A stretch of 64,000 bases of DNA from Pseudoalteromonas ulvae UL12. GTDB taxonomy: Bacteria; Pseudomonadota; Gammaproteobacteria; Enterobacterales; Alteromonadaceae. The stretch is from NCBI RefSeq assembly GCF_014925405.1, contig NZ_AQHJ01000020.1, forward strand, positions 24,988-88,987, given 5' to 3'. Positions 13,366 to 55,191 of the stretch are shown here, piece after piece; position 1 is the first letter of the stretch, and every line of letters starts with the position of its first letter. Under the pieces are notes generated by a model, which saw only the letters and a program-made list of their open reading frames with translations, was not told the origin of the DNA and made no database searches. A program made the position numbers and the translations under genes.

Positions 13366-14190
13366 GTGAGAAACAAAAATAGTCATTTGCTGGTGGATTT
13401 TAATCATAAATTATCGTTAGCTGGAACATTCGAAGAAGCCATAAAATTAACGGAAGAAACCCTAAAATTTCATTTCGGGATAAAAGGCATCTTTTATGGA
13501 ATTTCATTTGATCCGCAACATACATTTGAAACAGAAGAGCGTCGTAAATCCATAGCTGACGCGAATAAAAAAACGAAGTGTTCAGGCTCGGCAATTTCGC
13601 GTATAAAATTCTCTTCGACGTATTATGATGAATGGAATTTTGCTATAGAAACTAACCCAGAATTATTTGAATGTGTTTCATTTGATTGTTTGATAAATAA
13701 AAAGCGCGATGTTCTTTGGCAAGATCTCCATCATTTTTTGACAGACAAAACTGCCAAACGTGAGCGCAAATTGAACGATTGCATGGGGGGGTCACTTATG
13801 GATAATGGTATTACTTTGCAATGTAACTTTCACGAGATGCAGCCCTATCCAAGTGTCTTTGGCCTAAACGCTGGGCTACATGATAAAACAGGTTTTGCTA
13901 AGCAGTGGGCAGAGCAGCATCAAATCATCCGCCGAATAGTCAACGAGTTTGACGCGGCTGTGAGGCAAAACCATCTTGAAAATTGGTGTGGGTTATCAAA
14001 AAGCGAACTTGAAATCCTGAAGCTTGGTCGTAGCTACGATATAAGTGAAATCGCCTTACTTAGACACAGAAGCGAAAATACTATAAAAAAACAAATCAGC
14101 TCAATTAAATCGAAACTCAAAGCCAATAATCTTCAGTCTGCCTATCTACATGCCCTCACGGTCGGATTAATCAAGCCCGAGTTATATTAG
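13366..14190 (+). CDS. LuxR-family transcriptional regulator
   Basis: This 274-residue protein uses a GTG start at 13366, 35 bases after the PLD gene. The C-terminal 65 residues form a LuxR-type helix-turn-helix (LSKSELEILKLGRSYDISEIALLRHRSENTIKKQISSIKSKL, read in pieces). The N-terminal part could be a ligand-binding domain of the autoinducer type (residues about 15-170), but no acyl-homoserine lactone synthase gene is in view, so this is a solo regulator at best. It is the last gene of the toxin locus and may control it through the palindrome at 8217-8242. Confidence 0.75.
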   Translation: MRNKNSHLLVDFNHKLSLAGTFEEAIKLTEETLKFHFGIKGIFYGISFDPQHTFETEERRKSIADANKKTKCSGSAISRIKFSSTYYDEWNFAIETNPELFECVSFDCLINKKRDVLWQDLHHFLTDKTAKRERKLNDCMGGSLMDNGITLQCNFHEMQPYPSVFGLNAGLHDKTGFAKQWAEQHQIIRRIVNEFDAAVRQNHLENWCGLSKSELEILKLGRSYDISEIALLRHRSENTIKKQISSIKSKLKANNLQSAYLHALTVGLIKPELY

Positions 14191-14311
14191 CTCAACATGG
14201 TAGTGATTATTTCAAAAAGCAAGTGTTGACTACACGGGTGTAACGTATTATCTTTTTAATGTGCTCATGATAAGTCAATCTATACTCATAAGCGTCAATC
14301 CAAATAGTTGG

Positions 14312-14344
14312 CCCCAGAATAGAAATATTCTGGGGTTTGTTCTT
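14312..14344 (+). terminator. Strong intrinsic terminator after the toxin locus
   Basis: CCCCAGAATA (14312-14321), a GAAA tetraloop, then the exact complement TATTCTGGGG (14326-14335), followed by TTTGTTCTT. The 10-bp perfect stem, stable tetraloop and U-rich tail are typical of a Rho-independent terminator closing the 8.3-14.2 kb locus. Confidence 0.85.
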
Positions 14345-14472
14345 ATCAATTACTCAAAAATTTTATTACCCAAAATGTGCATTGCTAGTACATCCTTTTA
14401 GTTCCAACTCACTCATTCGAGCATTCTTTTTTACTAGTTTACATTTGCACAACCTGACAAAGGGATCATGTT

Positions 14473-14742
14473 ATGTGGTTTGTCACCAATACAACAATAC
14501 CACCTAAGTTTTATAGGCCAGATACAGACTTAATCTTGGTAACTACAATAGAGTGGATTACTGAACAAAATGATGAATCAGGCAATATAGTGTGGCGAGG
14601 CTCACCGACTATCAAAAATAATCAACAAGCAATTCATGCCTTGTATACGGTAGGTGTAAAAGGCTATCGTACAAAAGATGACGCAAAAAAATTCGCTAAG
14701 ACAATGGGTATCAAAACATGGAAATATCTTAGCTTAAAATAA
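14473..14742 (+). CDS. Small unknown protein
   Basis: An 89-residue protein with AAAGGGA about seven bases before the ATG. It contains two Trp-bearing segments (TTIEWITEQ, GNIVWRGSP) and a basic C-terminal half (GYRTKDDAKKFAKTMG). No signal peptide or membrane segment. No family recognised. It is convergent with the Mrr-like gene on the other strand, with about 30 bases between them. Confidence 0.5.
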   Translation: MWFVTNTTIPPKFYRPDTDLILVTTIEWITEQNDESGNIVWRGSPTIKNNQQAIHALYTVGVKGYRTKDDAKKFAKTMGIKTWKYLSLK

Positions 14743-14771
14743 ATTAAGATGGATTAAGGATATATAAGTTC

Positions 14772-15326
14772 TCAACCAGCTGATAAAAGCATAATCAACT
14801 TATCTCCACTAACAAGCTTGACCTGTGTGTTTTGCAATATTGATTTACTCATATCGCCCGTTTTACCGCTATGAACAAATAACCCTTTAACACCATGGCG
14901 ACCACATAGCTCGATAAAAGCCGCGACATGTTTTGGATTAACGTAATTTGAATACTTTTTTGCCTGAATGAAGTAGGTTGTTCCTTTAATCATAACTTTC
15001 CCATCCACGCCACCGTCATGTGTATACCGGTTACCCCGGATAATCTTATGACCCTGACGCTGAAGGGCCGTTAAAATCATCTCTTCGAAAACATATGGGT
15101 TTACTGCGATACGCAAAAATGAGATTTTGCCTGAAAAACTATCAATTTCATTCAATCTTTTTAGTTTCTTAGAAGCAACTTTGATGTACTTCTTTTTCTT
15201 AGCTGAATAGCGATTTTTACTTGGAATTAATACGTACAAGCACAGTAAAAATAGAATAAATCCGATCGGTACAGAGTAGGACTCAAAGACATCTAAATCA
15301 ATTGAATTCAGGAAGTCATTAAGCAT
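14772..15326 (-). CDS. Membrane-anchored Mrr-like restriction endonuclease
   Basis: This 184-residue protein has one membrane segment near the N terminus (about 18-35, VPIGFILFLLCLYVLIP), a basic stretch (SAKKKKYIKV) and a C-terminal Mrr_cat-type PD-(D/E)XK nuclease domain. Visible motif residues are the DGGVDG loop (Asp near 104 and 108) and the QAKKY strand (Gln 121, Lys 123), with helix FEEMILTALQRQGH before them. Mrr-type nucleases cut modified or foreign DNA. A membrane-tethered form is often met on integrative elements. It is the last gene of a three-gene operon with the Tus-like gene; only four bases separate it from the preceding stop. Confidence 0.75.
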   Translation of the reverse strand: MLNDFLNSIDLDVFESYSVPIGFILFLLCLYVLIPSKNRYSAKKKKYIKVASKKLKRLNEIDSFSGKISFLRIAVNPYVFEEMILTALQRQGHKIIRGNRYTHDGGVDGKVMIKGTTYFIQAKKYSNYVNPKHVAAFIELCGRHGVKGLFVHSGKTGDMSKSILQNTQVKLVSGDKLIMLLSAG

Positions 15327-15330
15327 AAGA

Positions 15331-15843
15331 CTACTTACCTTTTATACTTATTTGATTCAATCGGGCAAGCAGGGGGAGCACATCACCAGGCGTCAACTGA
15401 CCATGGAATCCGTCTCGATTCCAAAGACGGATCAATACAGATAGAGCGAACAAACTTAACTCATGCAATTCGAGTGGGTTATTTACAAATCCACTTTTCA
15501 CCACAGGGGCTGCAGAATTTCCCTCAACCTTCTTTGTAGAAAACACGTTGAGATTTCGCTCTTCATTCCATTGGATCTTCAGAAGAACCCCTCCAGCTGA
15601 GGGATGGCTAAATTCCCGTTTGTAACCATGTAAAACAGAAACAAGAGACACTAAATCTGCATCCGAAACGGATACCTTTGTTTCAAGATCATTAGCGAAT
15701 TTTTGATTATCTGGATCCCAACATACAAAACTGACAGATAGAGCCGGGCGTTTATTTTGCTCACCGATTGTTGTTTCCGTGAATGTTAATTTAAAGCGCT
15801 TTGGTATGATTAACCGGCGACTAAAAATTTGATTATTTTGCAT
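15331..15843 (-). CDS. Unknown middle gene of the Tus/Mrr operon
   Basis: A 170-residue protein whose start overlaps the end of the Tus-like gene by 11 bases, a sign of translational coupling. It is rich in beta-strand-like segments (RFKLTFTETTIG, PALSVSFVCWD, GGVLLKIQWNEERNLNVFSTKK), followed by a helical C terminus (LHELSLFALSVLIRLWNRDGFHG). A nucleic-acid-binding beta-sheet fold is conceivable, but nothing specific is recognised. Its tight placement between a replication-terminator protein and a nuclease suggests a shared DNA-related role. Confidence 0.55.
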   Translation of the reverse strand: MQNNQIFSRRLIIPKRFKLTFTETTIGEQNKRPALSVSFVCWDPDNQKFANDLETKVSVSDADLVSLVSVLHGYKREFSHPSAGGVLLKIQWNEERNLNVFSTKKVEGNSAAPVVKSGFVNNPLELHELSLFALSVLIRLWNRDGFHGQLTPGDVLPLLARLNQISIKGK

Positions 15844-16762
15844 GCTCTTCTACTCCAAAAATGTTCAGTTTCTCTAAAATGAGAGGTCCTGATTTAAAGC
15901 TATTTAATTTTCGGGCCTTCACCTCATTGCGTTGATAGCTTTCTAACGCTGAGACCTTAACATCGTCCTGACCAAATAAAATAATAGGGGAGGAGACACT
16001 ACAAAATGACCGGGTACCGTCTTTAAAGTAGACAGATATCGCTGGTGCTACTGGTTTTTTTCGACGCATCCTAAATCGTGCATAAGTAGAGCGCCTAATT
16101 GAATCAATATCTGAAACAAATTGAGTTTGGGTTAAATCGGGATCAACCGATTTGGATAAATGCACTTTTAAGTTATCTTCAAGCAATTGAATAAGCTCTG
16201 ACTTGGTGAAAACTGTATTGTTGGTATCTCGCTTCCAGTGAAAGTTTAAGGAACGCAGTGGCTGACTGAAGTATTTCAACTCTCTTTTGGCAACAAGGCT
16301 AATTAGCATTGGGAAAATACTGTGCACCCACTCAAAATGCTCTCGTTTATTTGTGAGCTTAGCTCGCGCAGCCAAAATAACCCCAAACTCTCTTTTTGCT
16401 GTATTAAGTTCATTACACAATTGAATGAGCTCTTCGTCATGCGGGATAGAGATAAAACCAGGGAATTTTGGGACTATTTTAGTTGATTGGCCATCCTGCG
16501 CATAAAAGGCTCTTGCTGAAATTGCCTCTCGGAACAAAAGAGCCGCTTCTTCACCAACGTAAGGGGTGACAGCAATAGATTCAATATCGCGGTAAAGGCT
16601 TTCTTTTACGGACAGTTTCCCTTCTTCTTCTCTCGAAATAAGCGGGATATGGTACATTTGACAGTCAAAAAAAACAGCCTTATTCATCTTCAAAGCCAGC
16701 TCATTGGTTAACTGAACCATGACGGACATGAGCTCATTTAACTGAGCTTTATAAAGCTCCAT
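15833..16762 (-). CDS. tus: Tus-family replication terminus-binding protein
   Basis: This 309-residue protein has the same length as E. coli Tus and aligns with it by eye through most of the chain. Examples are HFEWVHSIFPMLISL (Tus FEWVHRHLPGLITL), LRSLNFHWKRD (LRFGWANKH), a basic RRKKPVAPAISVYFKDG (KRPVKVQPIARVWYKG), SSPIIL, and the C-terminal PLILEKLNIFG (PLRLIIPRLHLY). Tus binds Ter sites and blocks the replisome in one orientation. ATG 16762 follows GAGGAG. The context (Mrr-like nuclease, ATPase operon, no chromosomal replication genes) suggests a plasmid- or ICE-derived copy rather than the host fork trap. Identity is fairly secure; function on this element is inferred. Confidence 0.8.
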   Translation of the reverse strand: MELYKAQLNELMSVMVQLTNELALKMNKAVFFDCQMYHIPLISREEEGKLSVKESLYRDIESIAVTPYVGEEAALLFREAISARAFYAQDGQSTKIVPKFPGFISIPHDEELIQLCNELNTAKREFGVILAARAKLTNKREHFEWVHSIFPMLISLVAKRELKYFSQPLRSLNFHWKRDTNNTVFTKSELIQLLEDNLKVHLSKSVDPDLTQTQFVSDIDSIRRSTYARFRMRRKKPVAPAISVYFKDGTRSFCSVSSPIILFGQDDVKVSALESYQRNEVKARKLNSFKSGPLILEKLNIFGVEEHAK

Positions 16763-16790
16763 TGCGATCTCCTCACTTATGGATTACCAT

Positions 16791-16813
16791 ACTAATAATA
16801 CAACATAAGTATA
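16791..16813 (-). promoter_or_regulatory. Ter-like sequence in the tus promoter
   Basis: The plus strand carries TACAACATA at 16799-16807, identical to the core of E. coli Ter sites, with about 15 of 23 positions matching TerB overall. It lies about 30-50 bases upstream of the tus-like start and 20-35 bases upstream of the divergent gene. E. coli tus is autorepressed from a Ter site in its promoter, so this site could do the same here. The outer part of the consensus differs, so the homologue may have shifted specificity. Confidence 0.4.
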
Positions 16814-16825
16814 AAATAATAAATT

Positions 16826-17494
16826 ATGAGATTAGGATATTCGTACACGATATCAAGTTACTTAATTGCATTGACGATACAGCGGTGCTTTCTAAGTCAC
16901 TCTGCAGGGGATAACTGGCTATTACTCGCCATAGCGCTACTAATTTATTCATTGTCACTGTTAAAACCTACCTTTACTCTTGGCCTTATACCGCTAGGTT
17001 TATTTGCTAACTACACACATGAACTTATTTACATCTCAGGCATTTTAAATGCGATGGATCTACATCTTGCGACAGCATTATTTGGCGGGTTAACGCTATT
17101 TAACCATCTAAAACCGGCATTCACACACTCAACCCCAAAAATGATGCTTTCAAAAGTTAAACTGGGCATATTGCTCTGTCCGATAGTCATCATTTTCTTA
17201 CTTCAACTGTATTACAGCATTCACGTAATTGCGCACATTACAGCGCAAGAACTCATGTTACGATTTATCCCACTCCTGATAATTGCGGGGATCTTAGCAC
17301 TTTCCAATCGGTATACCTTAGCGTCAATGATTACCACACTCATAATCGGAGGAAGCAGCTTCATCTTGGCCCAGCTCGCTGCCATTTTCTGGTTTGAAGG
17401 CTTAAAGTTTGATGGCGTATTCTTAGTTGGTATAGCACTTTTGTGCATGTATTTTTCAGCCAGCTCATATAAAGAGGTTGCACACCTTGACTAA
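16826..17494 (+). CDS. Polytopic membrane protein of unknown function
   Basis: A 222-residue protein with about six to seven hydrophobic segments (for example WLLLAIALLIYSLSLL, LGILLCPIVIIFLLQLYY, FIPLLIIAGILALS, MITTLIIGGSSFILAQ, FLVGIALLCMYF). No transport motif is recognised. It is transcribed divergently from the tus-like gene across a 63-bp gap holding the Ter-like site. A strong terminator follows at 17577, so it is probably a single-gene transcript. Confidence 0.6.
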   Translation: MRLGYSYTISSYLIALTIQRCFLSHSAGDNWLLLAIALLIYSLSLLKPTFTLGLIPLGLFANYTHELIYISGILNAMDLHLATALFGGLTLFNHLKPAFTHSTPKMMLSKVKLGILLCPIVIIFLLQLYYSIHVIAHITAQELMLRFIPLLIIAGILALSNRYTLASMITTLIIGGSSFILAQLAAIFWFEGLKFDGVFLVGIALLCMYFSASSYKEVAHLD

Positions 17495-17576
17495 CGCACC
17501 CACCACAAAACCAAAAGAGAGTATGGTTCAAGGGGTAGAATACATCCAACATACACATTATTCAATGACAAAATAT

Positions 17577-17612
17577 AGGCACCCGCTTCGCTCTGCCGGT
17601 GCCTTTTTTCTT
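17577..17612 (+). terminator. Intrinsic terminator
   Basis: AGGCACC (17577-17583) pairs with GGTGCCT (17598-17604) around a 14-base loop, and a long T-rich run follows. It ends the membrane-protein transcript before the next operon starts at 17737. Confidence 0.7.
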
Positions 17613-17736
17613 TCTTTTTTTTATTTTTTCTTTTTTTTTCTCTGTTTCGGTCGGTCAAAGCGACTGTCAGGAGATGCGCGGCTTTGCTCTTTAACTGTGA
17701 AGCTTAAGTGTAAGTTGGATGTAAAAGAGGCTTATT

Positions 17737-18297
17737 ATGTCTAGACACGACCTTCGTGAAATTTATGTTTATGTGTTCTTCCCCCTCAAAAAGGGCGAGA
17801 AAACAATTCCACACCATGTCTATCAACTCATCACCTATGATGACTTTGAAACCATTGCCGACGCTAATCGTAAAGACAATCAACGTCCCAAAAAAGATGC
17901 TATCGATTACTTGTCATGGCTTGTGAATGAAGAGCACCCCACAATACTTGATAATTCTATCAATCCAGAAGAAACCCGACCCACGATTAAAGGGATTATT
18001 GGCTCAGCTTGCTGCTTGCATACCGATATGTTCGTTCAAATGCGCGATGCTATTAAGTGCCTGGATAATTGTCGCCGAGAATATTTAGTCATTTACTTAA
18101 ACACAGAAGTAACACTGACCCACATCCGCCCAGTCGATGAATTCCTCTCAAAGTTCGAGTTTATTACGCGTAGATTCGAAACGACTATTTCTTCTAACTG
18201 CGATTACTATGCAGGTAATAAGTTCCTTCCTTGTGAAAACGCATTAATGAAGTGGGAATCAAAACTTTCTTTTCCAGGAGCGGATCAGCATGCTTGA
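17737..18297 (+). CDS. Unknown protein, first gene of the ATPase operon
   Basis: A 186-residue soluble protein (ATG 17737) with a Cys pair (SACCLHTD) and CLDNCRREYLVIYL in the middle. No domain is recognised. Its last eight bases overlap the start of the zinc-ribbon gene, which in turn overlaps the ATPase gene, so the three form a compact operon and probably one complex or pathway. Likely part of a mobile-element DNA-processing module. Confidence 0.55.
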   Translation: MSRHDLREIYVYVFFPLKKGEKTIPHHVYQLITYDDFETIADANRKDNQRPKKDAIDYLSWLVNEEHPTILDNSINPEETRPTIKGIIGSACCLHTDMFVQMRDAIKCLDNCRREYLVIYLNTEVTLTHIRPVDEFLSKFEFITRRFETTISSNCDYYAGNKFLPCENALMKWESKLSFPGADQHA

Positions 18298-18889
18298 GCG
18301 ACGTAAAGACGAGTCACAAACTCACCCAGAGAAAAAACCAATTGAGCGGCTGGTGGACCTAAAGCCTTTGCTTGATGTTCACGCTATAAACCGGATTATG
18401 CAAATTTTTGATATCCCACGCCACAGCACTCAACAATGGTTCCAATGCCCAGAGTGCAGCCGAATAAAGCTAAGAACCTGCGACAAAAATCCAATTAACT
18501 TAGTTTGCCAAGGATGTTCAATTACCACTAATTTATTTTCTTTAGCCACCGGCCATCGCTCAGACAAAACGGAACTCAATAAAGAGTTTGCACTCAAAAA
18601 AATAATCTATGGGATCCAAGAGGTCGACGCATTTCAATTACTGTCTGCGAAATTTGACTTCATGCTATTCAAGCATAACCTCAACGTCAAACACACAACC
18701 GGTGGACCACTTTATTATATCGGCAATCAATATGATGAAGAAAAATTCAACGCTTTAGCGGCACTGCGTAATATTAAAATGTGCAACACCAATATGAAGC
18801 CCCCCTATATTGCCCGCATAAAGACATGCCATGCAACACGCCATCCATACATTTGGTGCACAACTAACCGATTACTCGAGATTAAATAA
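18290..18889 (+). CDS. Zinc-ribbon protein, second gene of the ATPase operon
   Basis: This 199-residue protein has a four-Cys zinc-ribbon (FQCPECSRIKLRTC...LVCQGC, about residues 46-74), a layout common in DNA-binding or primase-like proteins. The rest is basic and lacks a polymerase or helicase motif I can name. The start overlaps the previous gene by eight bases; the stop TAATG shares bases with the ATG of the ATPase gene. A role in loading or guiding the ATPase onto DNA is an inference. Confidence 0.55.
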   Translation: MLERRKDESQTHPEKKPIERLVDLKPLLDVHAINRIMQIFDIPRHSTQQWFQCPECSRIKLRTCDKNPINLVCQGCSITTNLFSLATGHRSDKTELNKEFALKKIIYGIQEVDAFQLLSAKFDFMLFKHNLNVKHTTGGPLYYIGNQYDEEKFNALAALRNIKMCNTNMKPPYIARIKTCHATRHPYIWCTTNRLLEIK

Positions 18890-20379
18890 TGAAAGCACGC
18901 TTAGGGATCCATAACAATGCGATGAAAGCTTGGAACTACAATGAAATAACGACGCCTCATATCGTAATTTCAGGTAAAACTGGCTCTGGTAAAACCCATT
19001 TATTACGACGACTCCTTAATGATATGGTAAATACGGCCCCAAATCCGGTTCGGGTTCATATCTTCGATGTCCATGACGATCTTGCCATGCCCAATGAATC
19101 GGAAGTCATGTTCTCACAATCATCTAGTTATGGAATGAATGTACTTGATATCGATCCGAATCCACACTCTGGCGGGCCAAGGCGAGCCATTTCTGAGTTG
19201 ATAGCAATGATGGGAAAAACAACGACATTTAGACTGGGCGCCCGGCAAGAGCCGGTCTTCAGAAATATCTTGCTTCAGCTATATGAAAAAAATGGGTTTT
19301 ACCCAGACAAGCCTTCGAGTTGGCCTGTTGATGATGGAATAACCAGACGATACCCAAAGAAAATACCGACTCTCACTGACGCATTCAACTTTTCAAACTA
19401 CCAACTCAATCTGATTGAAACGGGTTGTGGCGGCGGGGCCCTTAAAGCACTTAAAGAACTGAAATCAGCTCAACTAAAACGAGTTAAACTTATTCGTTCT
19501 ACCCCAAAAGATGGGCTCGTAGATATTGAGGGGGAAATAGAAGCGCTCAAAACAAAAAGCATCTCAGCATACAACGACTTCATCATGCAATCGAGTGATG
19601 GGAAAGAGCAAGAAATGCTTAAATTGTATGATGAACCAAGTGTACTTAAGGCGGTGATTGACCGGATCAGCAACCTGCATAACATGCGCGTTTTCTCTGG
19701 TGAAAGCCCACCATTTAATATGTCAGCAAATTTTTGGCGCTACCGACTCAAACACTTGACTGTTGATCAATCTAAAATGTTTGTATTGGCCGCTTTAAAA
19801 CGTTTATTTATGCGAGCTGTCAGAAAAGGCGAGCAAAGCCATATCACGGATATTATCGTGGTGGATGAATTTAAGCGCTATGCTGATGACGAGCAGGGTA
19901 GTATTTTCGACATGATCAGTTTAGAAGCAAGAAAGTTTGGCTTAATGCTGGTGACCAGCTCACAATCACATAGGCATTTCCCTTCTGATCTTCTTAAATC
20001 ATCTGGGCTATCAATCGTTCTACAGCAAGATCCTTTGGATTACACCTACCTAAAAAATAACTGCCTACTTGAAAAAGAGCAGCTAGAAAAAATTAAACCT
20101 CGACATTCTGCATTATTTAGAATGTCTACGTTAGCTCATTCCGGCTCGCAACATGAATTAATCACGATTTCAGATAATGACATTATTTCACACAGCCAAG
20201 GCCAAAGAACTCAAACAATCAAAAATGAGCCAGCCTCACCTAAATTAGATTCTTCACCTATGAAACATGAGAAAGTGGTCATTAAAAATAACCCTCCACC
20301 TGTACATAGTGACAACTCAAAAGAAGAAGATCTATTATTCGAAGGTAAATCAATTGAAGATATTATTTCTGATTTGTAA
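18889..20379 (+). CDS. HerA/FtsK-superfamily ATPase
   Basis: A 496-residue P-loop ATPase. Walker A is GKTGSGKT (residues 29-36); Walker B is DIIVVDEF with Asp 326 and Glu 327; a sensor-like VTSSQSHRHFPSDLLKSS follows, as in HerA, VirB4/TraD-type and archaeal DUF87 motors. The middle (residues 150-230) is helical, and the C-terminal 90 residues are polar and probably disordered. No membrane segment, so it is not a standard type IV coupling protein. It probably pumps or remodels DNA for the mobile element. Translation is coupled to the zinc-ribbon gene. Confidence 0.75.
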   Translation: MKARLGIHNNAMKAWNYNEITTPHIVISGKTGSGKTHLLRRLLNDMVNTAPNPVRVHIFDVHDDLAMPNESEVMFSQSSSYGMNVLDIDPNPHSGGPRRAISELIAMMGKTTTFRLGARQEPVFRNILLQLYEKNGFYPDKPSSWPVDDGITRRYPKKIPTLTDAFNFSNYQLNLIETGCGGGALKALKELKSAQLKRVKLIRSTPKDGLVDIEGEIEALKTKSISAYNDFIMQSSDGKEQEMLKLYDEPSVLKAVIDRISNLHNMRVFSGESPPFNMSANFWRYRLKHLTVDQSKMFVLAALKRLFMRAVRKGEQSHITDIIVVDEFKRYADDEQGSIFDMISLEARKFGLMLVTSSQSHRHFPSDLLKSSGLSIVLQQDPLDYTYLKNNCLLEKEQLEKIKPRHSALFRMSTLAHSGSQHELITISDNDIISHSQGQRTQTIKNEPASPKLDSSPMKHEKVVIKNNPPPVHSDNSKEEDLLFEGKSIEDIISDL

Positions 20380-21100: not shown

Positions 21101-21452
21101 TATTTACCTGACCACAATAATTTTGTTAATAAATTATAAGTCTAACTTAATTTCTTTTAAAATAGCCGGAAACTTTAAGATTCAACCTTATTGGGCATTA
21201 TAGTTGTATTGATACTTTAATAAGATCCAGATGTTTGCCTTTTGCTCTAACAAGGTTTTGGCCCATCCAAAGTTAGCAACGCTACTTGAAATGAAGATCT
21301 CTCGCCTAATATTGACTAAAATAGAGTAATACGACAAAGTGACGACTGAAACTGTAGCGACTCAGTGCCTCCCGACTAATAATATTCATTAATTATTTTT
21401 TCTTAAAGTCTACAAGGAAGCGTGGCATTGTCTTTTTAAGGAACATATTAGA
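21101..21452. other. Intergenic region before the Avs-like gene
   Basis: I see no gene in these 352 bases. The stretch is AT-rich and must hold the promoter of the Avs-like gene at 21453; AAGGA lies about a dozen bases before its GTG. No transposon end was recognised here. Confidence 0.35.
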
Positions 21453-21989
21453 GTGTCGAATACTAATTCAGGGGACGGTGAACGTACTGCAATGCTGGGG
21501 TATGTACCGCAGTATGAAATAGCAGCAGGCCTAATATATGAAGCTTTGCTCAGTGGAAGTCTTGAATGGTTTCGAGTGGCTGATCCTGATGCGGGAAGTT
21601 TGGATGACATACTTATAGCTACTACTGGTAAGCTTGATGCGTATCAGGTGAAGTGGGCGGAATATGTTGGACAAATTAGTTATGCAGACTTTATAAGAGA
21701 CACTCCTACAAAGCAAGGGGGTGAAAAGCTAAGCCTTTTCAGGCAGCTAACAGAAGGGTGGAATCATTTAAGTGATAATTACAAAGAAAGAACTGTAAAA
21801 GTTCACCTGCTTCATAAGCTAGTACCTAGCCCAAACCCTAAAGCCGAAATTCCTTTAGGCGATAAAGTCCCTAAACATGCTCACTTCCAATCTTTCTTAA
21901 AAGAATGTTGGTTCGATAGAAAGTGGTGTGAAACCGGTCTTGATAAAGTAGCGGTATGTTGGAAAGAGACACTGTTGGATTTACAGAAT
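21453..21989 (+). pseudogene. 5' part of an Avs-like gene, nuclease-like domain, cut by IS3
   Basis: GTG 21453 starts a frame that runs 179 codons and is then interrupted by an IS3-family element. Removing the IS and one AAT repeat joins it in frame to 23223-28832, giving a protein of about 2,048 residues. The N-terminal domain (GYVPQYEIAAGLIYEALL...) contains Asp 51/52 in SLDDILIATTG and QVK at 65-67. This D...QxK order is that of PD-(D/E)XK nucleases of the Cap4/DUF4297/Mrr kind found at the front of antiviral STAND proteins. In its present state the nuclease-like domain is separated from the NTPase and sensor, so the system is presumably inactive. Confidence 0.7.
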
Positions 21990-22053
21990 TGGACTTCACA
22001 GACTTTGCTAGACACTTTTAACAGTTACAATGTAACTTCAAATAGAGGTGTTT

Positions 22054-22332
22054 ATGAGCAAAGGCAAACGGTATACCGAAGAGTTTAAGATAGAAGCAGT
22101 CAAGCAAATTACTGAGCGTGGTTATTCAGTTCAGGAAGTTGCTGATCGGCTTGGTATTTCAACTAAATCCCTCTATCACTGGCGAAGCCTGTTAAGTGGC
22201 AATAAAGCCGTTCGCCAGTCATCTGATGATTCGGTTCGAATTGCTAAGTTAGAGGCAGAGTTGAAGCGAGTCACGGAGGAAAGGGACATCTTAAAAAAGG
22301 CCGCAAGGTACTTTGCAAGCCAGCCAGAGTAA
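22054..22332 (+). CDS. IS3-family transposase OrfA, copy 1
   Basis: A 92-residue OrfA from ATG 22054 (AGAGGT upstream), with an N-terminal helix-turn-helix (YSVQEVADRLGISTKSLYHWR) that binds the IS ends and a C-terminal leucine-zipper-like helix. This copy has Leu in SLLSGN where copies 2 and 3 have Gln. An A6G slippery run at 22293-22299 near its end should shift ribosomes -1 into the OrfB frame and make the OrfAB fusion transposase. Confidence 0.9.
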   Translation: MSKGKRYTEEFKIEAVKQITERGYSVQEVADRLGISTKSLYHWRSLLSGNKAVRQSSDDSVRIAKLEAELKRVTEERDILKKAARYFASQPE

Positions 22333-22370
22333 AGTACGCCTTTATCCGAGATCACCAGAAGCAGTTCTCT

Positions 22371-23201
22371 GTGTTATCCATGTGCCGTGTATTAAAAATC
22401 AATCGCAGTGGCTTTTATGCATGGCTTAAACAGCCGTTGAGCACGAGAGCGATTGAAGATAATCGCCTGCTCAAGCGGATAAAAGAGTTCTATATTGCCA
22501 GCGGCGGAACATATGGTAGCCCTTGGATACATCGTGATCTTCGTGAAGCGGGCGAGTCTTGTAGCGTGCACCGTGTTGCTAAAATTATGCGACTGAACAA
22601 CCTTAGAGCGCAGATTGGTTACAAGCGCAAATACATCAAAGGCGTTAAGCCATCACGGATTGCAGATAACGTATTGGAGCGTGATTTTGCCCCAGACTCA
22701 CCTAATACTGCGTGGGTGAGTGACATCACGTATGTGCGAACGTATGAGGGTTTTCTGTACTTAGCGACAGTTATCGACTTGTTCTCACGACGCGTTGTCG
22801 GTTGGTCGATGGATAAAAACATGGATAAGCATTTGGTTATCCGGGCATTATTAATGGCCGTTTACCAACGTCGGCCAGAACAATCTGTGTTGGTACATAG
22901 CGATCAAGGCAGTCAGTATGGCAGTGCAGATTATTTAGCGTTTATGAAAGAGCATAACCTTATTCCTTCCATGAGCCGCAGAGGAAACTGTCATGATAAT
23001 GCGGTTGCTGAGAGCTTTTTTGCTACGTTTAAAAAGCGCGTGATCAGAAAGAAGATATATTCGACCAGAGACGAAGCGAAGACAGAGATATTTAACTTTA
23101 TAGAAATGTTTTACAATCCAAAAAAACGCCACTCGCATACAGGCGGTATATCACCTGCTAAATTCGAAGAAGCGTATTTTTTGAAACAACAGACTGTCTA
23201 G
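22371..23201 (+). CDS. IS3-family transposase OrfB (DDE integrase), copy 1
   Basis: The frame from GTG 22371 encodes 276 residues, but the coding frame is open back into orfA (KYAFIRDHQKQFSV), so the working enzyme is the OrfAB frameshift product. The DDE triad is seen in WVSDITYV, VHSDQGSQYG and NCHDNAVAESFFATFKKR. The HTH_21 region (GSPWIHRDLRE) precedes it. The gene appears intact and could be active. Confidence 0.92.
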   Translation: MLSMCRVLKINRSGFYAWLKQPLSTRAIEDNRLLKRIKEFYIASGGTYGSPWIHRDLREAGESCSVHRVAKIMRLNNLRAQIGYKRKYIKGVKPSRIADNVLERDFAPDSPNTAWVSDITYVRTYEGFLYLATVIDLFSRRVVGWSMDKNMDKHLVIRALLMAVYQRRPEQSVLVHSDQGSQYGSADYLAFMKEHNLIPSMSRRGNCHDNAVAESFFATFKKRVIRKKIYSTRDEAKTEIFNFIEMFYNPKKRHSHTGGISPAKFEEAYFLKQQTV

Positions 23202-23222
23202 TGAGAGCTGGGAAGTCCAAAT

Positions 23223-26200
23223 CGATCAAATTTTAATGATGACCAATTTTTGAATTTTATTCGTTGTTGTGAGCTTGGATTCAATTATAAGCGACCAGCT
23301 GACATCCCTATAACCAATCAGGGACAAGCAAGAAAACAAGAAGATATTGAAAAAATATATAACCTCCTGACGAAAATGGCAGGAGGTGAACGTCGAATTA
23401 TTGAGCTATCCAAAGATGATATGTTGGATAGGTTGGCGTGGAGCCATAGATTCAAACATAAGTTTGTTCACGAATTTCCTATTGATCGAACTTATCAAGA
23501 AATTGAAGAAACGGTTGTTTCTATATCTGATGTATTATCACAAACCAAGCAGGGCTATGTCGCATTGCTGGGAACTCCAGGCTCTGGAAAGTCAACAACG
23601 CTTACTCATACTTTAAGGTATAAAGCAGGATATAAGTTAGTTAGATATTACGCGTATGTTCCAGATAGCACTTATCAAGGGCGTGGTGAAGCGAGTACTT
23701 TTCTTCATGACATTACCTTGTCGCTAAAAAATCATGGCTTTCTTGGTCAAAGTTCTGGGCAACCAGGCTCAAGAGAAGAATACCTATCGTTGTTAGGAGA
23801 GCAGCTTCAGCAAGCCCATGAAAAATGGAAAAATGATGGTGTAACCACCATCATCATGGTCGATGGGTTAGACCATATTCAACGAGAGCAAAATCCTCTA
23901 CAGAGTTTGTTGTCAGATTTTCCTCCCCCTAACACCGTACCTGATGGAGTGATATTTGTTCTAGGGAGTCAAACGTTGGAGTTGAACGATCTCTCTGACA
24001 CGATAAAGGAGCATGTCAGGCATGAAAGTCGAACCATTGTGATATCTCCTCTAACTCGGACAAATGTCTATGCAGCCATAAAAGAATGGGCAGGTTGTTC
24101 CGAACTAACAGATGATGCCAAGAAGAGAATTTTCGAAAAGTCATTAGGACACCCACTATCTTTAGTATATTTGCTGCAATTTATTACTAGCAGTTCGGGT
24201 AAGAGTTATGATGAAACTATTGATGAGTTTCCTCCTTATCAGGGACATATTGAGCAAAGCTACTCAGTTTATTGGCGGCAAATAGAGAGCAATCAGAACC
24301 TTGTTGACTTGCTTGCGTTATTGTCAAGATTGAGAGTACCAATAAACACTCAATTGCTTGATAAATGGTCTGAATATTCAACTATTCGCGCGTTTATATC
24401 AACTGCATCTCACTATTTTAAGAAAGATAGTGATGTAAGTTGGCGTTTTTTCCATAACAGCTTCCGGCAGTTTATTTTAGATAAAACGAGCCGTAACCTA
24501 TTTGGTAATTTTGATGATTCACAGGATATCAAATATCACAAGGTATTAGCTGAGCATTGTATTCAATCGTCTGATGGTAATGATCCAATGCGATGGGAGG
24601 CAGTTTACCACCTTTTTAATGCTCGGCAGATGGAAGCTGTAATTGGTATAGGGACTCAAGGTTACTTTAGAGAACAGTTCTTTAATCTTCGGAATACTTC
24701 GAGTTTGACAGATGATATTGACGCTGTTCTATTGTCGGCGAAGGAGCTAAATGACCCGCTTGCAGTAGTGAGATGCTTATTAATTGAATGCGAGCTTAGA
24801 GAGCGTAGAGATGCCCTTAATGAAATTGATGTACTTAATCTCTTATTTTCATCGGAGGGGGTAAGTTCAGCGCTTAGCTATATATTCGACGGAGAATTAC
24901 TTAGAGTAAGTGATGCACAAGCGCTCAAATTTTCTAAAGTTCTTGCTGAGAACAAATTCTTTAATGAAGCTAAAAGGGTCTTTGAAACTGCTGAACCGCT
25001 AAGTTACTTGTCAGGTAGTGACGCTGTTGATCCGCATCATGGTGGAGCTGAAAATTTGAAACGATGGGTTGATGTGGCTCATTATTTCATGCCCCTAGAT
25101 GACCTCATCTCAACTATACACCAAACGAAGTATGAAGATGATGTGGGAGCAAGGAGTGGAAATAATGAGGATCTGCATGCTCGCTTGTTGGTACGGTTTG
25201 TCAATGGTGTTTATGAAACAAAAGACGAAGTGAAAATAAGTGAGCTTTTTTCCTTCTTGTCAGAAAAAGAAGAGCACTTTGATAGTTTTGTAAATTTATG
25301 TATTTCCATATGCATTAGCCAATATCCAACGGCTTTGGTAGACGCTGCATTCGAGGCCGTTATTGACTGGTCTGATAATTATGACTTAGATTTTTCGGAC
25401 AAGGTGTTGGTTGCTGAACTGGATTACAGAGCCAATGGAAGTGTAGAAAAAACTAAAGCATGGTTTAAAAGTTTAGAACAGCCAAAACTTTATAAGTATA
25501 GCGCTCATGGTCAATGGAAGAACTTAAGTCCATTCGATGGTCGAATTCGTCTTAATAGACTACGAGCAGCTCTGGGCCAAAGTGTTGATCCTGTTAAGGT
25601 GGTTCCAAATGAAAGCGAAGAAAAGTATACAGGAAACGTCTTATTTGAACGTGCTTTAGTCAGGTTTTCAAGCATTTGGGGACGAGGTTGGGCTGGAGAG
25701 AAACTTCTACCAAGTTTTATTGTTCAAGAAATTAAGCCATCATTTGAATTATTACGAAAGCCTTATAATCAAACAAGGGATTGGATAGGGTGGTATGAGT
25801 TCGAATCAGCCGCTGTTGATTACTTTAATTTCGCAATAAGGGCCACTGCTCAACATGGACGTGATTGTATTTTGGCTCTAGCCGATGCTTTTAGAAAAGA
25901 TTGGGATAAACGGTATTGGCCGACTAGCTGGCGCAGAGAAATTGCTTTCACTTTGTATAAAGAAGGGAATGGCAGGGATGATTTTGTTGACGTGCTGGAT
26001 CAAATCGAAAAAGAGATCCCCGATTTTGACGAAATCCACTCCAAAATATCTGAGTATTATGAACTTTCTATAATGTGGTCAAAGATTGGTAAACCAGATC
26101 GAGCAGCTAGCCTTTTACCTAAAATCTTCGTGGGTTCTTTTGGAATATATCATAAGAAAGACAGGCAATTTTCCCATTGGGTATCGTGGTTAGATAAGTT

Positions 26201-28832
26201 TACCAGTCAATATCCTGATTTAGCATACGGTGAAATATGTCGATTTTCTTTGGCGTTAGTAAATTTGGAACAGTCGGGAAATGGTCGTGGTACGCAGGAA
26301 GCAGGACTTGATCTCATCACTATTACCTCACGTTGGAATCCGGGATATGGATTAAAGCTCTTGAGGTGGTTATTCGATCATAAAGGACTTGATTATGCTC
26401 CAGGCCTAACAGGTTTACTGTCTGGATTGCTTGATGGTTCTTGTCCGGCATTGAAAGAAATATCTGTGATGGCGAAAAAGCTGCTGATCCCTTTCGAAGA
26501 GTACAACCCTTCCGAACTGCCTAAAAAGTTGGTATCTCGATACAGCCAATCTTCCGATGATAGTATGGCGGATGAGATAGAAGAGCTTATTGCATCTATC
26601 AATACACATTCATTACCTTCAAATCGTTACTCGTGGTTAGAGGGGATAGCGCTTGGCGTCAGAGATGCGGGGCTAGACAATCGTTTTTATGCATCAATGG
26701 CGTTTTCTACCCCCCAAGAAAAGCATGTTACTCATGAACCCTCTTTGACATTAAATACCGGGCAAAAACTTACAGATAAAGAAGCTCAGCTGACAGTAAA
26801 TTCTTCTGAAAGCCTTTTTCAGCTTCTTCGAACTGTTGAATCCGTTGACTATTTCCGCTGGATGAAATTAATTCAACCTTTTTTAAAAGGTATGAATGTC
26901 TCTCAATTAGAGGAACTCTATAAGCTTTTAAAGCCTCCTGTTAAGCCTGATAATAATGTCGTTTCTTGTATTGCTACCGCATTATATTCACATGGCGAAG
27001 TGGATAAAGCGAAGAGTTTATTAGAAGGTTTATTCGATAACACGGATGCCAAAGATTGGGATTTGCATTGGGATGGTGGTTCTACGCAGTCGATATTTAG
27101 AGCCCTTGTTGAAATTGATCCTAAAAAGTGGCGACCTAAAGCGCTCGCTCGTTTAGTTGATGATTATATTGGTGAAAATAGGTATCCAAACAGCTTAATT
27201 TGGAACTTACAAGAAATTGTCGATATCCTCTTTGAGGATAAAGATGTCCTACCCATTTGGAAGGAAATCAAAGAACATGCATACCAGCTAGACGCTTTTG
27301 AACAAGGTACTGAGAATCCACCAGCACTGTTAAATGACTTTGGCGAGAAGAAGGATGCTAATTTACTCATTGAGTTTGCATTCGATATGCTTGATGTCGC
27401 TATTCCTGAATTAGAGGTTATGGCTCATCAGGCAATCGTTGATTTGGCTAAAATTAAAGCTAATTGGCCAGAAATTCTTAGGCAAATAGCTGATAGAATA
27501 GACAAAATTGGGTTGACGCAGGTAAAAGTAGTATCTTTGTTAAGTAGCTTGGAAAAGGATTTCAAAGGGTTTGCTCTTCAATTTGAGCAGAAAATATCTT
27601 CACTCTGTGCGTCGAAAGACTTTAGTGTAAGGATGATTGCCTTGGATTTGTCTAGTTGGATAGGGATCGAAGGTAGGCTACCTCCACATGAACGATCAAA
27701 GTTACCTTTGATATACGAATTGGAGTTACCTGAAATAAGCAATAAAAAGGAAGCTATTCCATTTTCAGCAATCCGCCCAGGGGAAACACTTCCTGATGTT
27801 GATGACCCGATTGAGTTGCTTAATCCTTTTGTGTCTGTAGCGGAGCTGGTGGCTAAATTCTCAAACGTACCGTTTGAGAATTTAGCCTACAGAGCTTGTG
27901 AGTTTATGAAAACTTTGATTCCAGAGAATGAATGGAATAAGCAGGCTGAAGAAATTTATGTAAACTGGTTGGAAGGCGTTGGACTCAAGCTGACCTACCA
28001 TAGACTGAGACCAAAAGTGGCAAAACTGGCACTCTCTTATGTGGTGTGCGAGTTATTGGATGCTGGGAGAATACCTCATCAAGGAATTGATCTTCTGCGA
28101 AAGATTTTCAAACGTAGTGATGAATTGTTATTAGAACTTGAGCCCACTATTAGACCTGAGGGTATTGTTGTACCGAAAGCAAAAGATCGAGATATATCTC
28201 ATAAACACGATGAATGGTTGGGGGATATTGAACAAAGTATTACAAAATTTGTTGATTGTATAGGCACTGAAAAACAAATTATTGGTGAACTTACAACCTG
28301 GAGATGGTTAGATTGGGATTTACCGACGGAGGTTCGTATGTCTACAGTTTGTCATCCTGAATGGAATGACGATGAAGAAGTTACCTCACCTTCTGCTTTC
28401 TTCCCTAGCATGATGAACAGGTCTGCAATTGATTACCCTGAAATCACTGCAACCATAGAACCATCACTGGTAATTTATGGTACAGGTTTAAACATCGATC
28501 ATGGAAGCATTGAGTGGTTAGCACTAAATCCTTCTTTTGGCTTGTTTCTGGGTTGGTCTGTTTCTGATGAAGGAGTGTTCCGCTGGATCAATGAGAAAGG
28601 GGATATAATGGTTGAAAGCATCTACTGGAAAGATGGTCCTATTTCTCGACAACCACCAAAAATGGATGATATTTGTTCAAATGGATGGCTTGTGACCGCC
28701 TCTGACGAGGCAGTTAAAAAAATCAGGGAAGTCATTGGCGAAGCGATAAAAGTAAATGCAGTAATACGCAGTTATAGTCGAAATACATACGAACCTAACA
28801 CTACTTTCATCCAACAGAGAATTAATTGGTAG
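23223..28832 (+). CDS. Avs-like STAND NTPase, 3' part (NTPase plus helical-repeat sensor)
   Basis: This is the downstream part of the split gene: 1,869 codons after the IS, with a possible TTG restart at 23250. Walker A GTPGSGKST corresponds to residues 296-304 of the restored protein; Walker B is TIIMVDGLDHI, followed by a GSQ-type sensor. After the ~350-residue NTPase come about 1,300 residues of helical repeats rich in Leu, Trp and Glu. The C-terminal domain contains WRWLDWDLP and FGLFLGWSVSDEGVFRW. This nuclease/STAND/long-repeat plan matches Avs (AVAST) antiviral sensors, which bind phage proteins and then degrade DNA. Without its effector domain the remaining frame is probably non-functional, or at most dominant-negative. 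Class within Avs not determined. Confidence 0.75.
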   Translation, partial: RSNFNDDQFLNFIRCCELGFNYKRPADIPITNQGQARKQEDIEKIYNLLTKMAGGERRIIELSKDDMLDRLAWSHRFKHKFVHEFPIDRTYQEIEETVVSISDVLSQTKQGYVALLGTPGSGKSTTLTHTLRYKAGYKLVRYYAYVPDSTYQGRGEASTFLHDITLSLKNHGFLGQSSGQPGSREEYLSLLGEQLQQAHEKWKNDGVTTIIMVDGLDHIQREQNPLQSLLSDFPPPNTVPDGVIFVLGSQTLELNDLSDTIKEHVRHESRTIVISPLTRTNVYAAIKEWAGCSELTDDAKKRIFEKSLGHPLSLVYLLQFITSSSGKSYDETIDEFPPYQGHIEQSYSVYWRQIESNQNLVDLLALLSRLRVPINTQLLDKWSEYSTIRAFISTASHYFKKDSDVSWRFFHNSFRQFILDKTSRNLFGNFDDSQDIKYHKVLAEHCIQSSDGNDPMRWEAVYHLFNARQMEAVIGIGTQGYFREQFFNLRNTSSLTDDIDAVLLSAKELNDPLAVVRCLLIECELRERRDALNEIDVLNLLFSSEGVSSALSYIFDGELLRVSDAQALKFSKVLAENKFFNEAKRVFETAEPLSYLSGSDAVDPHHGGAENLKRWVDVAHYFMPLDDLISTIHQTKYEDDVGARSGNNEDLHARLLVRFVNGVYETKDEVKISELFSFLSEKEEHFDSFVNLCISICISQYPTALVDAAFEAVIDWSDNYDLDFSDKVLVAELDYRANGSVEKTKAWFKSLEQPKLYKYSAHGQWKNLSPFDGRIRLNRLRAALGQSVDPVKVVPNESEEKYTGNVLFERALVRFSSIWGRGWAGEKLLPSFIVQEIKPSFELLRKPYNQTRDWIGWYEFESAAVDYFNFAIRATAQHGRDCILALADAFRKDWDKRYWPTSWRREIAFTLYKEGNGRDDFVDVLDQIEKEIPDFDEIHSKISEYYELSIMWSKIGKPDRAASLLPKIFVGSFGIYHKKDRQFSHWVSWLDKFTSQYPDLAYGEICRFSLALVNLEQSGNGRGTQEAGLDLITITSRWNPGYGLKLLRWLFDHKGLDYAPGLTGLLSGLLDGSCPALKEISVMAKKLLIPFEEYNPSELPKKLVSRYSQSSDDSMADEIEELIASINTHSLPSNRYSWLEGIALGVRDAGLDNRFYASMAFSTPQEKHVTHEPSLTLNTGQKLTDKEAQLTVNSSESLFQLLRTVESVDYFRWMKLIQPFLKGMNVSQLEELYKLLKPPVKPDNNVVSCIATALYSHGEVDKAKSLLEGLFDNTDAKDWDLHWDGGSTQSIFRALVEIDPKKWRPKALARLVDDYIGENRYPNSLIWNLQEIVDILFEDKDVLPIWKEIKEHAYQLDAFEQGTENPPALLNDFGEKKDANLLIEFAFDMLDVAIPELEVMAHQAIVDLAKIKANWPEILRQIADRIDKIGLTQVKVVSLLSSLEKDFKGFALQFEQKISSLCASKDFSVRMIALDLSSWIGIEGRLPPHERSKLPLIYELELPEISNKKEAIPFSAIRPGETLPDVDDPIELLNPFVSVAELVAKFSNVPFENLAYRACEFMKTLIPENEWNKQAEEIYVNWLEGVGLKLTYHRLRPKVAKLALSYVVCELLDAGRIPHQGIDLLRKIFKRSDELLLELEPTIRPEGIVVPKAKDRDISHKHDEWLGDIEQSITKFVDCIGTEKQIIGELTTWRWLDWDLPTEVRMSTVCHPEWNDDEEVTSPSAFFPSMMNRSAIDYPEITATIEPSLVIYGTGLNIDHGSIEWLALNPSFGLFLGWSVSDEGVFRWINEKGDIMVESIYWKDGPISRQPPKMDDICSNGWLVTASDEAVKKIREVIGEAIKVNAVIRSYSRNTYEPNTTFIQQRINW

Positions 28833-28998
28833 TCACATTAAAATGGTTGTACATTATTGCAAGGGGTAGTTATTACCCCTACCAAACTACAGAGACAGAA
28901 ATAATTCTGTTATATAAAACGATGAAATCTTCTGCATGCTTTTCCTAATCTGATAGAAATGCTTTTTGCTATAAAACTAACTTGCTTTTATCGAAAAG

Positions 28999-30688: not shown

Positions 30689-31375
30689 TTATTTGATTAG
30701 GTTAACTTCGAGAATATTTTCTATCTTCTGTTTTTTACCACTCCAAATGTACTTGTAGTGCCCACCTTGAACTGGAATCGTAACCGTTTTAGGCTTAAAC
30801 GCCGCAACACATTCACCACCTCTATCACGAACACTTTTATACAGTAAACCATTACTACCACCGGCACGCATTTCCTTTGCAAAATTCTGCGGAGCTAAAT
30901 AATCATCAGTATATAAAAAGTCAAACTCCTCGGCCCTTACATCATGAAGTTCCAATGCCACTTTATTGATATAGCAACGCATTGTTAACTCGGTGTCTGG
31001 CTCGTTGGTAGCTGATAAGAACCTTTCACGATGGTGAATCGTTTCTGCAAATGCCGTATCTAAATCTCTTGCACCATAATATACGCCGTATTCTGTTCCA
31101 TCAGTAAAGCGTGTGGGACTTCCTATATGTGTAAATGCAGCCATCACAGGTGTTGAACCAGATCCGGAAATTCTTTCTTGCATAGGAACAAGCGCCAAAT
31201 CACCCACCTCATCACGAAGCCGATCATTAGTGAGTGATTCAATCGCGAAAACTATCTCAAGTTCATCAGTAGATGCAACATTCTCAAACAAATTGATCGG
31301 CGGGAAATGACTTGGTACTAATCGATGTAATTTATCCCATTCAGGTAGAACAGTATTAACCTCGTTGTGAATCAA
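30689..31375 (-). CDS. RES-domain toxin of a type II toxin-antitoxin system
   Basis: The 228-residue protein carries a RES domain: SPTRFTDGTEYGVYYGARDLDTAFAETIHHRE, read in parts, shows the conserved Arg, Tyr and Glu around an NAD-binding pocket. RES toxins are NAD+ phosphorylases that deplete NAD+ when the antitoxin is lost. The start overlaps the end of the Xre antitoxin gene by 20 bases, the usual antitoxin-toxin order. Such pairs stabilise mobile islands and can act in phage defence. Confidence 0.85.
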   Translation of the reverse strand: MIHNEVNTVLPEWDKLHRLVPSHFPPINLFENVASTDELEIVFAIESLTNDRLRDEVGDLALVPMQERISGSGSTPVMAAFTHIGSPTRFTDGTEYGVYYGARDLDTAFAETIHHRERFLSATNEPDTELTMRCYINKVALELHDVRAEEFDFLYTDDYLAPQNFAKEMRAGGSNGLLYKSVRDRGGECVAAFKPKTVTIPVQGGHYKYIWSGKKQKIENILEVNLIK

Positions 31376-31760
31376 GATATCGCCTCATATCACTCAAATT
31401 AATAATACTGCCTTTAAGCATAAACTGTATCGCCGTCTCCCCGTTGAAGGCTTTATTCGGTTTATGTGGCCATGCATCTGCTTGCTCTCGGGTGGGAAAT
31501 AAAATCCCCAATGCCTTATATATCCCCATCACATAGGAGATACGCTCAAGTGTATCGATAGAGAGGCTTGAAACCTTCCCCTTCTTCCAATTGTAGAACG
31601 TTGATTCTGCTGGCTTCCCTAGCATGACAATCTGATCTTTAGCTCTTACATTCCAACTAGCCATAATATTAAAAAAGACCGAAAGGGCAACTTTAGCTGT
31701 TTTTTCAGGATCTTTAGCCAAATAGGCTTGTTCTAAGCCAGACATAATAATGCTCTCCAT
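31356..31760 (-). CDS. Xre/MbcA/ParS-type antitoxin for the RES toxin
   Basis: A 134-residue protein with an Xre-like helix-turn-helix (LGKPAESTFYNWKKGKVSSLSIDTLERISYVMGIYKAL, in parts) followed by the MbcA/ParS C-terminal toxin-binding domain (REQADAWPHKPNKAFNGETAIQFML). It should neutralise the RES toxin and repress its own operon. A Tn7-like end lies 63 bases upstream of the start, close enough to have replaced or altered its promoter region. Confidence 0.85.
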   Translation of the reverse strand: MESIIMSGLEQAYLAKDPEKTAKVALSVFFNIMASWNVRAKDQIVMLGKPAESTFYNWKKGKVSSLSIDTLERISYVMGIYKALGILFPTREQADAWPHKPNKAFNGETAIQFMLKGSIINLSDMRRYLDSQRG

Positions 31761-36294: not shown

Positions 36295-36469
36295 ATGCGT
36301 TCCTATCAAAGTGAATATTTACAGAGGGGAATGGAAATTTACGTATAAAACAACTCATAAACAGCCATTCTCAGCTAAAAAATGATTAACAATCAAAAGA
36401 ATACCAGAAGACCTGATTATTTGACATGGCAGAAAATAAACTGTATTCACATGGACTTCCCAGCTCTCA

Positions 36470-37300: not shown

Positions 37301-37338
37301 AGAGAACTGCTTCTGGTGATCTCGGATAAAGGCGTACT

Positions 37339-37617
37339 TTACTCTGGCTGGCTTGCAAAGTACCTTGCGGCCTTTTTTAAGATGTCCCTTTCCTCCGTGA
37401 CCCGCTTCAACTCTGCCTCTAACTTAGCAATTCGAACCGAATCATCAGATGACTGGCGAACGGCTTTATTGCCACTTAACTGGCTTCGCCAGTGATAGAG
37501 GGATTTAGTTGAAATACCAAGCCGATCAGCAACTTCCTGAACTGAATAACCACGCTCAGTAATTTGCTTGACTGCTTCTATCTTAAACTCTTCGGTATAC
37601 CGTTTGCCTTTGCTCAT
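37339..37617 (-). CDS. IS3-family transposase OrfA, copy 2
   Basis: A 92-residue OrfA with the helix-turn-helix VADRLGISTKSLYHW, from ATG 37617 behind AGAGGT. It ends close to the A6G slippery run that links it to orfB. This copy has SQLSGN. Confidence 0.9.
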   Translation of the reverse strand: MSKGKRYTEEFKIEAVKQITERGYSVQEVADRLGISTKSLYHWRSQLSGNKAVRQSSDDSVRIAKLEAELKRVTEERDILKKAARYFASQPE

Positions 37618-37766
37618 AAACACCTCTATTTGAAGTTACATTGTAACTGTTAAAAGTGTCTAGCAAAGTCTGTGAAGTCCACATCCGCTAAATTAGGTGG
37701 ATAAAATCACTATACCACTACACTGTTTATCAACGTCAACCTAAAGTTGAGGTGGTTGTTTATTGC

Positions 37767-45302: not shown

Positions 45303-45369
45303 CACTGGACTTCACAGACTTTGCTAGACACTTTTAACAGTTACAATGTAACTTCAAATAGAGGTGTTT

Positions 45370-45648: not shown

Positions 45649-45686
45649 AGTACGCCTTTATCCGAGATCACCAGAAGCAGTTCTCT

Positions 45687-46517: not shown

Positions 46518-46535
46518 TGAGAGCTGGGAAGTCCA

Positions 46536-53215: not shown

Positions 53216-53265
53216 TTAACTGCTCAATATGAAACACAATAAGCTTTACAAAATTGTGTATCTCT

Positions 53266-54222: not shown

Positions 54223-54248
54223 ATATGATCTCAAACTCGCATTTATTA

Positions 54249-55082: not shown

Positions 55083-55121
55083 CTTATTCCTTTGTCACTT
55101 AACTATATTTATTCATACTGT

Positions 55122-55160: not shown

Positions 55161-55191
55161 TTCTATTCAATATTGTCTTTTTATTAGTTGC

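Follow-up and report, generated by a model that had tools for sequence, protein, structure and literature searches.

An Avs1b-related STAND gene interrupted by an IS3-family insertion sequence in Pseudoalteromonas ulvae UL12

Organization of the interrupted locus

The stretch of DNA analyzed here, referred to below as the window, comprises 64,000 nucleotides of Pseudoalteromonas ulvae UL12 (NCBI RefSeq assembly GCF_014925405.1, contig NZ_AQHJ01000020.1, positions 24,988 to 88,987 of the forward strand) and contains a large gene for a predicted STAND NTPase that is divided by an insertion sequence (IS). Features lie on the plus strand unless stated otherwise. The N-terminal piece of the gene (21453..21989; 179 codons with a GTG start) encodes a probable Cap4-like PD-(D/E)XK nuclease effector, and the C-terminal piece (23223..28832; 1,869 codons) a STAND NTPase with a putative sensor; both pieces are free of stop codons and lie in the same frame. 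Between them is the 1,230-bp IS (21990..23219), in the same orientation as the gene, with the left (21987..21989) and right (23220..23222) copies of an AAT target-site duplication at its borders. A preliminary description of this DNA had placed an IS with a precise AAT duplication here and had derived a restored frame of about 2,048 residues; both are borne out, the latter equaling the length of most uninterrupted relatives. In its present state the upstream open reading frame (ORF) extends for another 32 codons within the IS before it meets a stop, giving an ORF of 211 residues when called mechanically, and in the downstream ORF a TTG (23250) is the first start listed.

All of the IS3-family features looked for are found in the inserted element, namely two ORFs with an A6G slip site, an rve transposase, a 3-bp duplication and inverted ends. 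OrfA is encoded at 22048..22332, with the slip site at 22293-22299, and orfB (22371..23201) encodes a DDE transposase with rve and HTH_21 domains; the termini of the element are TGGACTTC...GAAGTCCA. Members of this family move by a copy-out, paste-in route in which the donor site is not cleaned. The UL12 genome (4,742,574 bases) holds nine full-length copies, five of which retain the 3-bp duplication, and the eight others differ from the interrupting copy at 2 to 6 of 1,230 positions. Two substitutions are private to the interrupting copy and absent from the other eight, and one of them alters an OrfA residue. Full-length matches in the rest of the genus reach at most 77% identity (39 of 108 genomes, UL12 included, gave some match, with three candidates scored per genome).

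The IS copies are strongly concentrated in a stretch of contig G000:C19, which at 88,987 bp makes up ∼1.9% of the genome and carries four of the nine full copies; those in the window lie at 21990-23219, 36452-37681, and 45306-46535. Two copies on different contigs (L003 and L030) have at least 20 identical bases on their right sides and differ on their left, which suggests a rearrangement between IS copies.

Intact and broken relatives

Relatives were counted over 12 loci (L009-L020) with at least 70% identity to the C-terminal piece, leaving out L024, which duplicates L010, as well as L001 and L023, which are the window itself. When the two pieces were searched separately, their matches adjoined one another at the IS point in 11 of these loci, with the N-terminal piece at 75-88% identity; the remaining locus, L015, begins downstream at a contig edge and does not reach the insertion point. 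The pieces are contiguous as well in L021, a relative at 41% identity. The event is read as a simple insertion because of these contiguous matches and not on the 3-bp repeat alone, and the broken locus is one large gene interrupted by an IS. The preliminary description had named beforehand, as an outcome that would speak against it, that all related strains lack the upstream domain; the relatives do carry it. Frames are uninterrupted in 8 of the 12 loci and span 2,048-2,060 residues depending on the start chosen, while full-length relatives at large have mostly 2,020-2,090 residues and those above 60% identity are close to 2,048.

The hosts of these relatives include Proteus, Pantoea, Oceanospirillum, Vibrio (on plasmids), and Pseudoalteromonas rubra (strain S2676, L010). 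Identity of the C-terminal piece is 83-89% in eight of nine loci from distant hosts and 70% in the ninth. Within the genus, 7 of 108 genomes match this piece at E 1e-10: UL12 itself, G053 with a relative at 83% (C13:693-6299, on a 9,987-bp contig), and five others with weaker matches (25-28%) that cover a portion of the NTPase region. The N-terminal piece was found in 1 of 147 genomes of the host family, that of UL12; the P. rubra genome was not among the matches, and whether the draw of 147 included it was not checked. Searches for the C-terminal piece in phage records and, for near DNA matches, in Escherichia coli genomes found no relative, and of 11 stretches of viral contigs that fit a pattern none was confirmed as one.

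The DNA that the window has in common with these relatives extends from about 21247 to 28997, so that flanking sequence accompanies the gene in some of them. Homology on the 5′ side starts at 21247-21252 in L009, L014, and L020, at 21391 in L011, and at 21433 in L016, L018, and L019 (alignment A1 among the evidence); this flank (21247..21452) probably holds the promoter and ribosome-binding site, to judge by position only. On the 3′ side (28833..28997), where the traveling unit stops, matches end at 28992-29000 in L011, L016, L018, and L019, at 28965 in L009, and at or near the stop codon in the others.

Four of the 12 counted loci are broken. L015 is divided between two ORFs and cut by a contig edge, L016 and L019 carry frameshifts, and in L020 an IS3-like element is present and the C-terminal half is missing. 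Gene loss is thus observed more than once, in a small sample in which L018 and L019 are near-identical plasmids from one site and the frameshifts could be sequencing errors. The frameshifts of L016 and L019, which are separate Vibrio relatives, lie close together in the gene and leave overlapping ORFs, whether by coincidence, sequencing error, or a local cause. Among 167 collected relatives (a set that counts P0018 and P0090, both from the window), 85 are short and 82 have at least 1,990 residues, counts that do not represent a rate, as the searches were length-limited and many short relatives may be contig ends. A break hotspot between the nuclease and STAND parts was rejected, since truncated relatives stop at points spread over the length of the protein; the tail of P0093, which we take to resemble translated sequencing adapter, was not counted as a break.

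One metagenome relative occurs as two ORFs, P0094 (158 residues) and P0024 (1,879 residues; longest contig 23,787 bp for both), which, with the integrity of both halves in UL12, would favor a split system in which the 211-residue N-terminal ORF serves as a free nuclease and the C-terminal part as a sensor-switch, both of them useful. However, the TTG start of the C-terminal part speaks against this arrangement, promoter-like sites in the region are not in excess (4 found against 4.7 expected, standard deviation 2.6), the ends of truncated relatives are scattered, and the selection signals described below are mostly older than the break and cannot separate the two cases. A split system is considered highly improbable.

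Age of the insertion

No lesion other than the IS was found in the gene. Of 59 residues that are invariant and 107 that are near-invariant in 24 diverse relatives, the two pieces keep 59 and 106, respectively. The ratio of non-synonymous to synonymous substitution (dN/dS), calculated with six of the 12 loci, is 0.11-0.17 for the N-terminal and 0.17-0.25 for the C-terminal piece in the six pairs involving the window; in the 15 pairs that the six relatives form among themselves, the corresponding ranges are 0.07-0.17 and 0.13-0.30. Given the residues kept and dN/dS values like those of the relatives, the break looks young on the scale of the family's divergence, a comparison that carries no absolute date. 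The preliminary description had called the break recent, with which the otherwise intact frame and the 2-6 substitutions between IS copies agree, whereas the two private substitutions of the interrupting copy make a very fresh insertion less likely.

Synonymous divergence between the window and L009 is 0.56 in the nuclease piece (21453-21989) and 0.30 in 23223-28832, and between L010 and L012 the pattern is reversed, at 0.30 (N-terminal) and 0.46 (C-terminal). From this contrast the gene looks mosaic.

Reversible loss had also been put forward, as phase variation in which the IS exits and enters exactly and toggles a costly defense gene within the population, and the intact remainder of the gene and the clean duplication would fit such a scheme. 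However, no empty allele of the host was found among the genomes compared, which come from collections with one genome per species and hence no sister strains, and UL12 holds a single match to the gene and no second copy. No excision factor was detected either: AEP-TOTE, a family presumably linked to the excision enhancer and used as a weak stand-in for it, is unmatched in UL12 (1 of 14 control genomes matched). Copy-out, paste-in movement would leave the donor site uncleaned, and the two private substitutions suggest that the IS copy has stayed in place for some time. Excision of an IS driven by IEE did restore lacZ in E. coli, and exact excision is described as rare (PMC9397093). Phase variation at this locus, as judged from one genome per species, lacks support and is regarded as very unlikely.

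Domain organization of the restored protein

For the N-terminal piece the PADLOC "Effector" endonuclease model gives 18.4 bits (E 1.5e-4), and Pfam and NCBIfam give no match. An alignment of 24 relatives and another of 56, which overlap in their members, show no variation at D51, D52, Q65, and K67; these residues belong to the putative motif DD...QVK (residues 51-67; 21603..21653), which we take to be a catalytic motif of the PD-(D/E)XK type. This motif, along with the weak profile matches, makes the piece a probable PD-(D/E)XK nuclease, in keeping with the domain assignment made earlier.

The STAND NTPase and the region following it (23523..24995; residues 101-591 of the C-terminal piece) contain a P-loop, GTPGSGKST, at ∼23571-23597. 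These residues match the PADLOC Avs1b model at E 1.3e-37, as do 24 of 24 relatives, and a profile built from the 24 aligns with an annotated Avs1b in hhalign over 471 columns (probability 99.7%, E 1.1e-25). This similarity makes the NTPase core distantly homologous to that of Avs1b, and the restored protein matches a STAND defense family, as the preliminary description had proposed. The remaining ∼1,280 C-terminal residues (24996..28829) are conserved among relatives and have no match to profiles in PADLOC, Pfam, or NCBIfam. Profile searches against solved structures gave weak matches, mainly to P-loop proteins and to repeat, helical, or designed proteins (three sequences at E ≤1 in one search; 34 at E ≤5, best 0.0022, in another). 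This part is a putative sensor on account of its position, and the order of the whole protein is probably nuclease, STAND, sensor.

Genomic context and mobility of relatives

Plasmid records that match the C-terminal piece number 20, of which six do so over at least 80% of its length. In Proteus terrae (L009) the gene has gor on one side and, on the other, three large recombinase-like ORFs with a small one (14071-19711), and the same set, IS-damaged and at 92-98% identity, is present on a Vibrio cholerae plasmid (L020:15720-23916); the recombinase naming derives from the translations and from an annotated recombinase in the matching set of L020. Other relatives are on Vibrio plasmids near conjugation genes. 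A PADLOC Avs2 gene is located directly downstream of the relative in L014, and on a Nitrosococcus plasmid (L021) dsr1 is one small gene away. Eleven neighbors of the interrupted gene in the window were tested against the loci of the relatives, and none is present there.

The gor gene is found upstream in L011 also, and a 39% relative of gor in L014. A distant relative, 32% identical over ∼600 residues and adjoined by a helicase gene that has PbeA-like matches, was detected on a conjugative E. coli plasmid (L022:8362-14427) and in similar records from Klebsiella, Salmonella, Enterobacter, and Citrobacter.

Proposed function

The most probable explanation, held with considerable confidence, is that the locus represents a horizontally acquired single-gene immune receptor that was inactivated by a recent, simple insertion of an IS3-family element between its effector and its switch. 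A role of the family in antiphage defense is likely. By analogy to STAND/NLR-like proteins, as presented in PMC12931631, the long C-terminal part of the uninterrupted relatives would recognize a phage protein, the NTPase core would then oligomerize with ATP, and the N-terminal nucleases thereby brought together would cut DNA, ending the infection at the sacrifice of the cell. Nuclease activity, phage sensing, and oligomerization are accordingly only predicted for these proteins. In UL12 the function has presumably been lost, given that the upstream ORF stops within the IS and the downstream ORF has a TTG as its first listed start.

Several observations weigh against this interpretation. Besides the private IS substitutions, Pfam gathering scores are not reached by the NTPase of the window, Cap4_nuclease (Pfam) matches 1 of 24 relatives weakly (E 0.038), and the SAVED-PDDEXK model matches 3 of 24, again weakly. 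No functional data were found for any member of the family, and 8 of 10 genes scanned that neighbor relatives have no PADLOC match at E 0.001; these last two points would suit a STAND regulator or toxin of some other purpose, unrelated to phage defense. However, the homology to the Avs1b core together with the probable nuclease effector, the Avs2 gene adjoining one relative and dsr1 near another, and the presence of relatives on plasmids and on a recombinase-bearing element all count against such a protein, and a non-defense role is judged unlikely.

Other features of the window

Near the interrupted gene, a HerA-like ATPase (18889-20379) matches mad8 of the MADS defense models (E 1.6e-14) and is closely preceded by two ORFs of unknown family (17737-18889). 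A gene with a RES domain and a small ORF beside it occupy 30689-31760. Genes for a peptidase M20, a penicillin amidase-like protein, an ATP-binding cassette (ABC) transporter, and non-ribosomal peptide synthetase (NRPS) modules occupy the minus strand at 49765-63992, probably constituting a peptide natural-product cluster. The window yielded no tRNA and, at gathering score, no match in Rfam.

Comparison with known systems

Natural insertions of IS into cas genes, and of IS1 and IS10 into 12 different other defense gene clusters, are recorded in PMC10359306. The present case resembles these in that an IS inactivates a gene with a likely role in defense, and differs in involving an IS3-family element, a STAND gene, and a marine bacterium. 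The insertion itself is an ordinary loss, and it is the gene family that is of interest.

The sole match of the interrupted protein to an Avs profile is to the Avs1b core, and it falls far under the cut-off (128 bits, compared with 1,500 for the Avs1b equivalog), so the protein probably has an Avs-like build and is not a member of any Avs type tested. The STAND NTPase and the region that follows are clearly homologous to Avs1b over ∼470-490 residues, and total length is similar (an annotated Avs1b has 1,938 residues), whereas the C-terminal part lies outside the Avs1b alignment. The annotation of Avs1b is that of a protease accompanied by avs1a and avs1c, as on the Cupriavidus plasmid pHG1, where the annotated gene is flanked by both; by contrast, the interrupted gene has a probable nuclease fused within a single gene. 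In PMC12799240, Avs1b is described as having a trypsin-like protease, through which a separate nuclease is activated. No protease profile in PADLOC, Pfam, or NCBIfam matches the N-terminal piece, and PADLOC detected no avs1a or avs1c among 24 other ORFs scanned in the window, both direct neighbors included, in a search for which the presence of both models was not checked.

Avs1-Avs4 use nuclease effectors, and the probable order nuclease, STAND, sensor is like that of Avs2 to Avs4 (PMC12931631). Avs2 profiles gave no match to the interrupted protein at E 1, while the Avs2 gene of L014, as a positive control, matches six Avs2 models (E 3e-180); in hhalign, comparison with this Avs2 yields one 112-column P-loop stretch at probability 1.7. 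Avs3, Avs4, and Avs5 were unmatched in PADLOC and NCBIfam, where the presence of their models was without a positive control. Of the earlier designation as an Avs-like STAND gene, homology to the Avs1b core stands and membership of Avs1 or Avs2 does not. As both memberships failed, the most fitting description of the protein is that of a cousin of the Avs1b core with a fused nuclease. The interrupted gene belongs to a branch of a known family of bacterial immune proteins that many hosts share and that is without a name in the libraries searched; literature searches returned no paper recognizable from the listings as describing this branch.

It may tentatively be proposed, on a judgment that falls somewhat short of even, that the family constitutes an unnamed AVAST type, a one-gene Avs1 switch in which a fused Cap4-like nuclease replaces the protease and separate nuclease. 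Such a type would range over gammaproteobacterial orders at 83-89% identity, with repeated loss through IS insertion or frameshift. This wide sharing, together with several broken copies, offers a case for studying how such genes are gained and lost. An Avs1b-type switch with another effector would show how STAND immune proteins exchange their killing part, and the family complements published work on the protease-nuclease pairs of AVAST systems.

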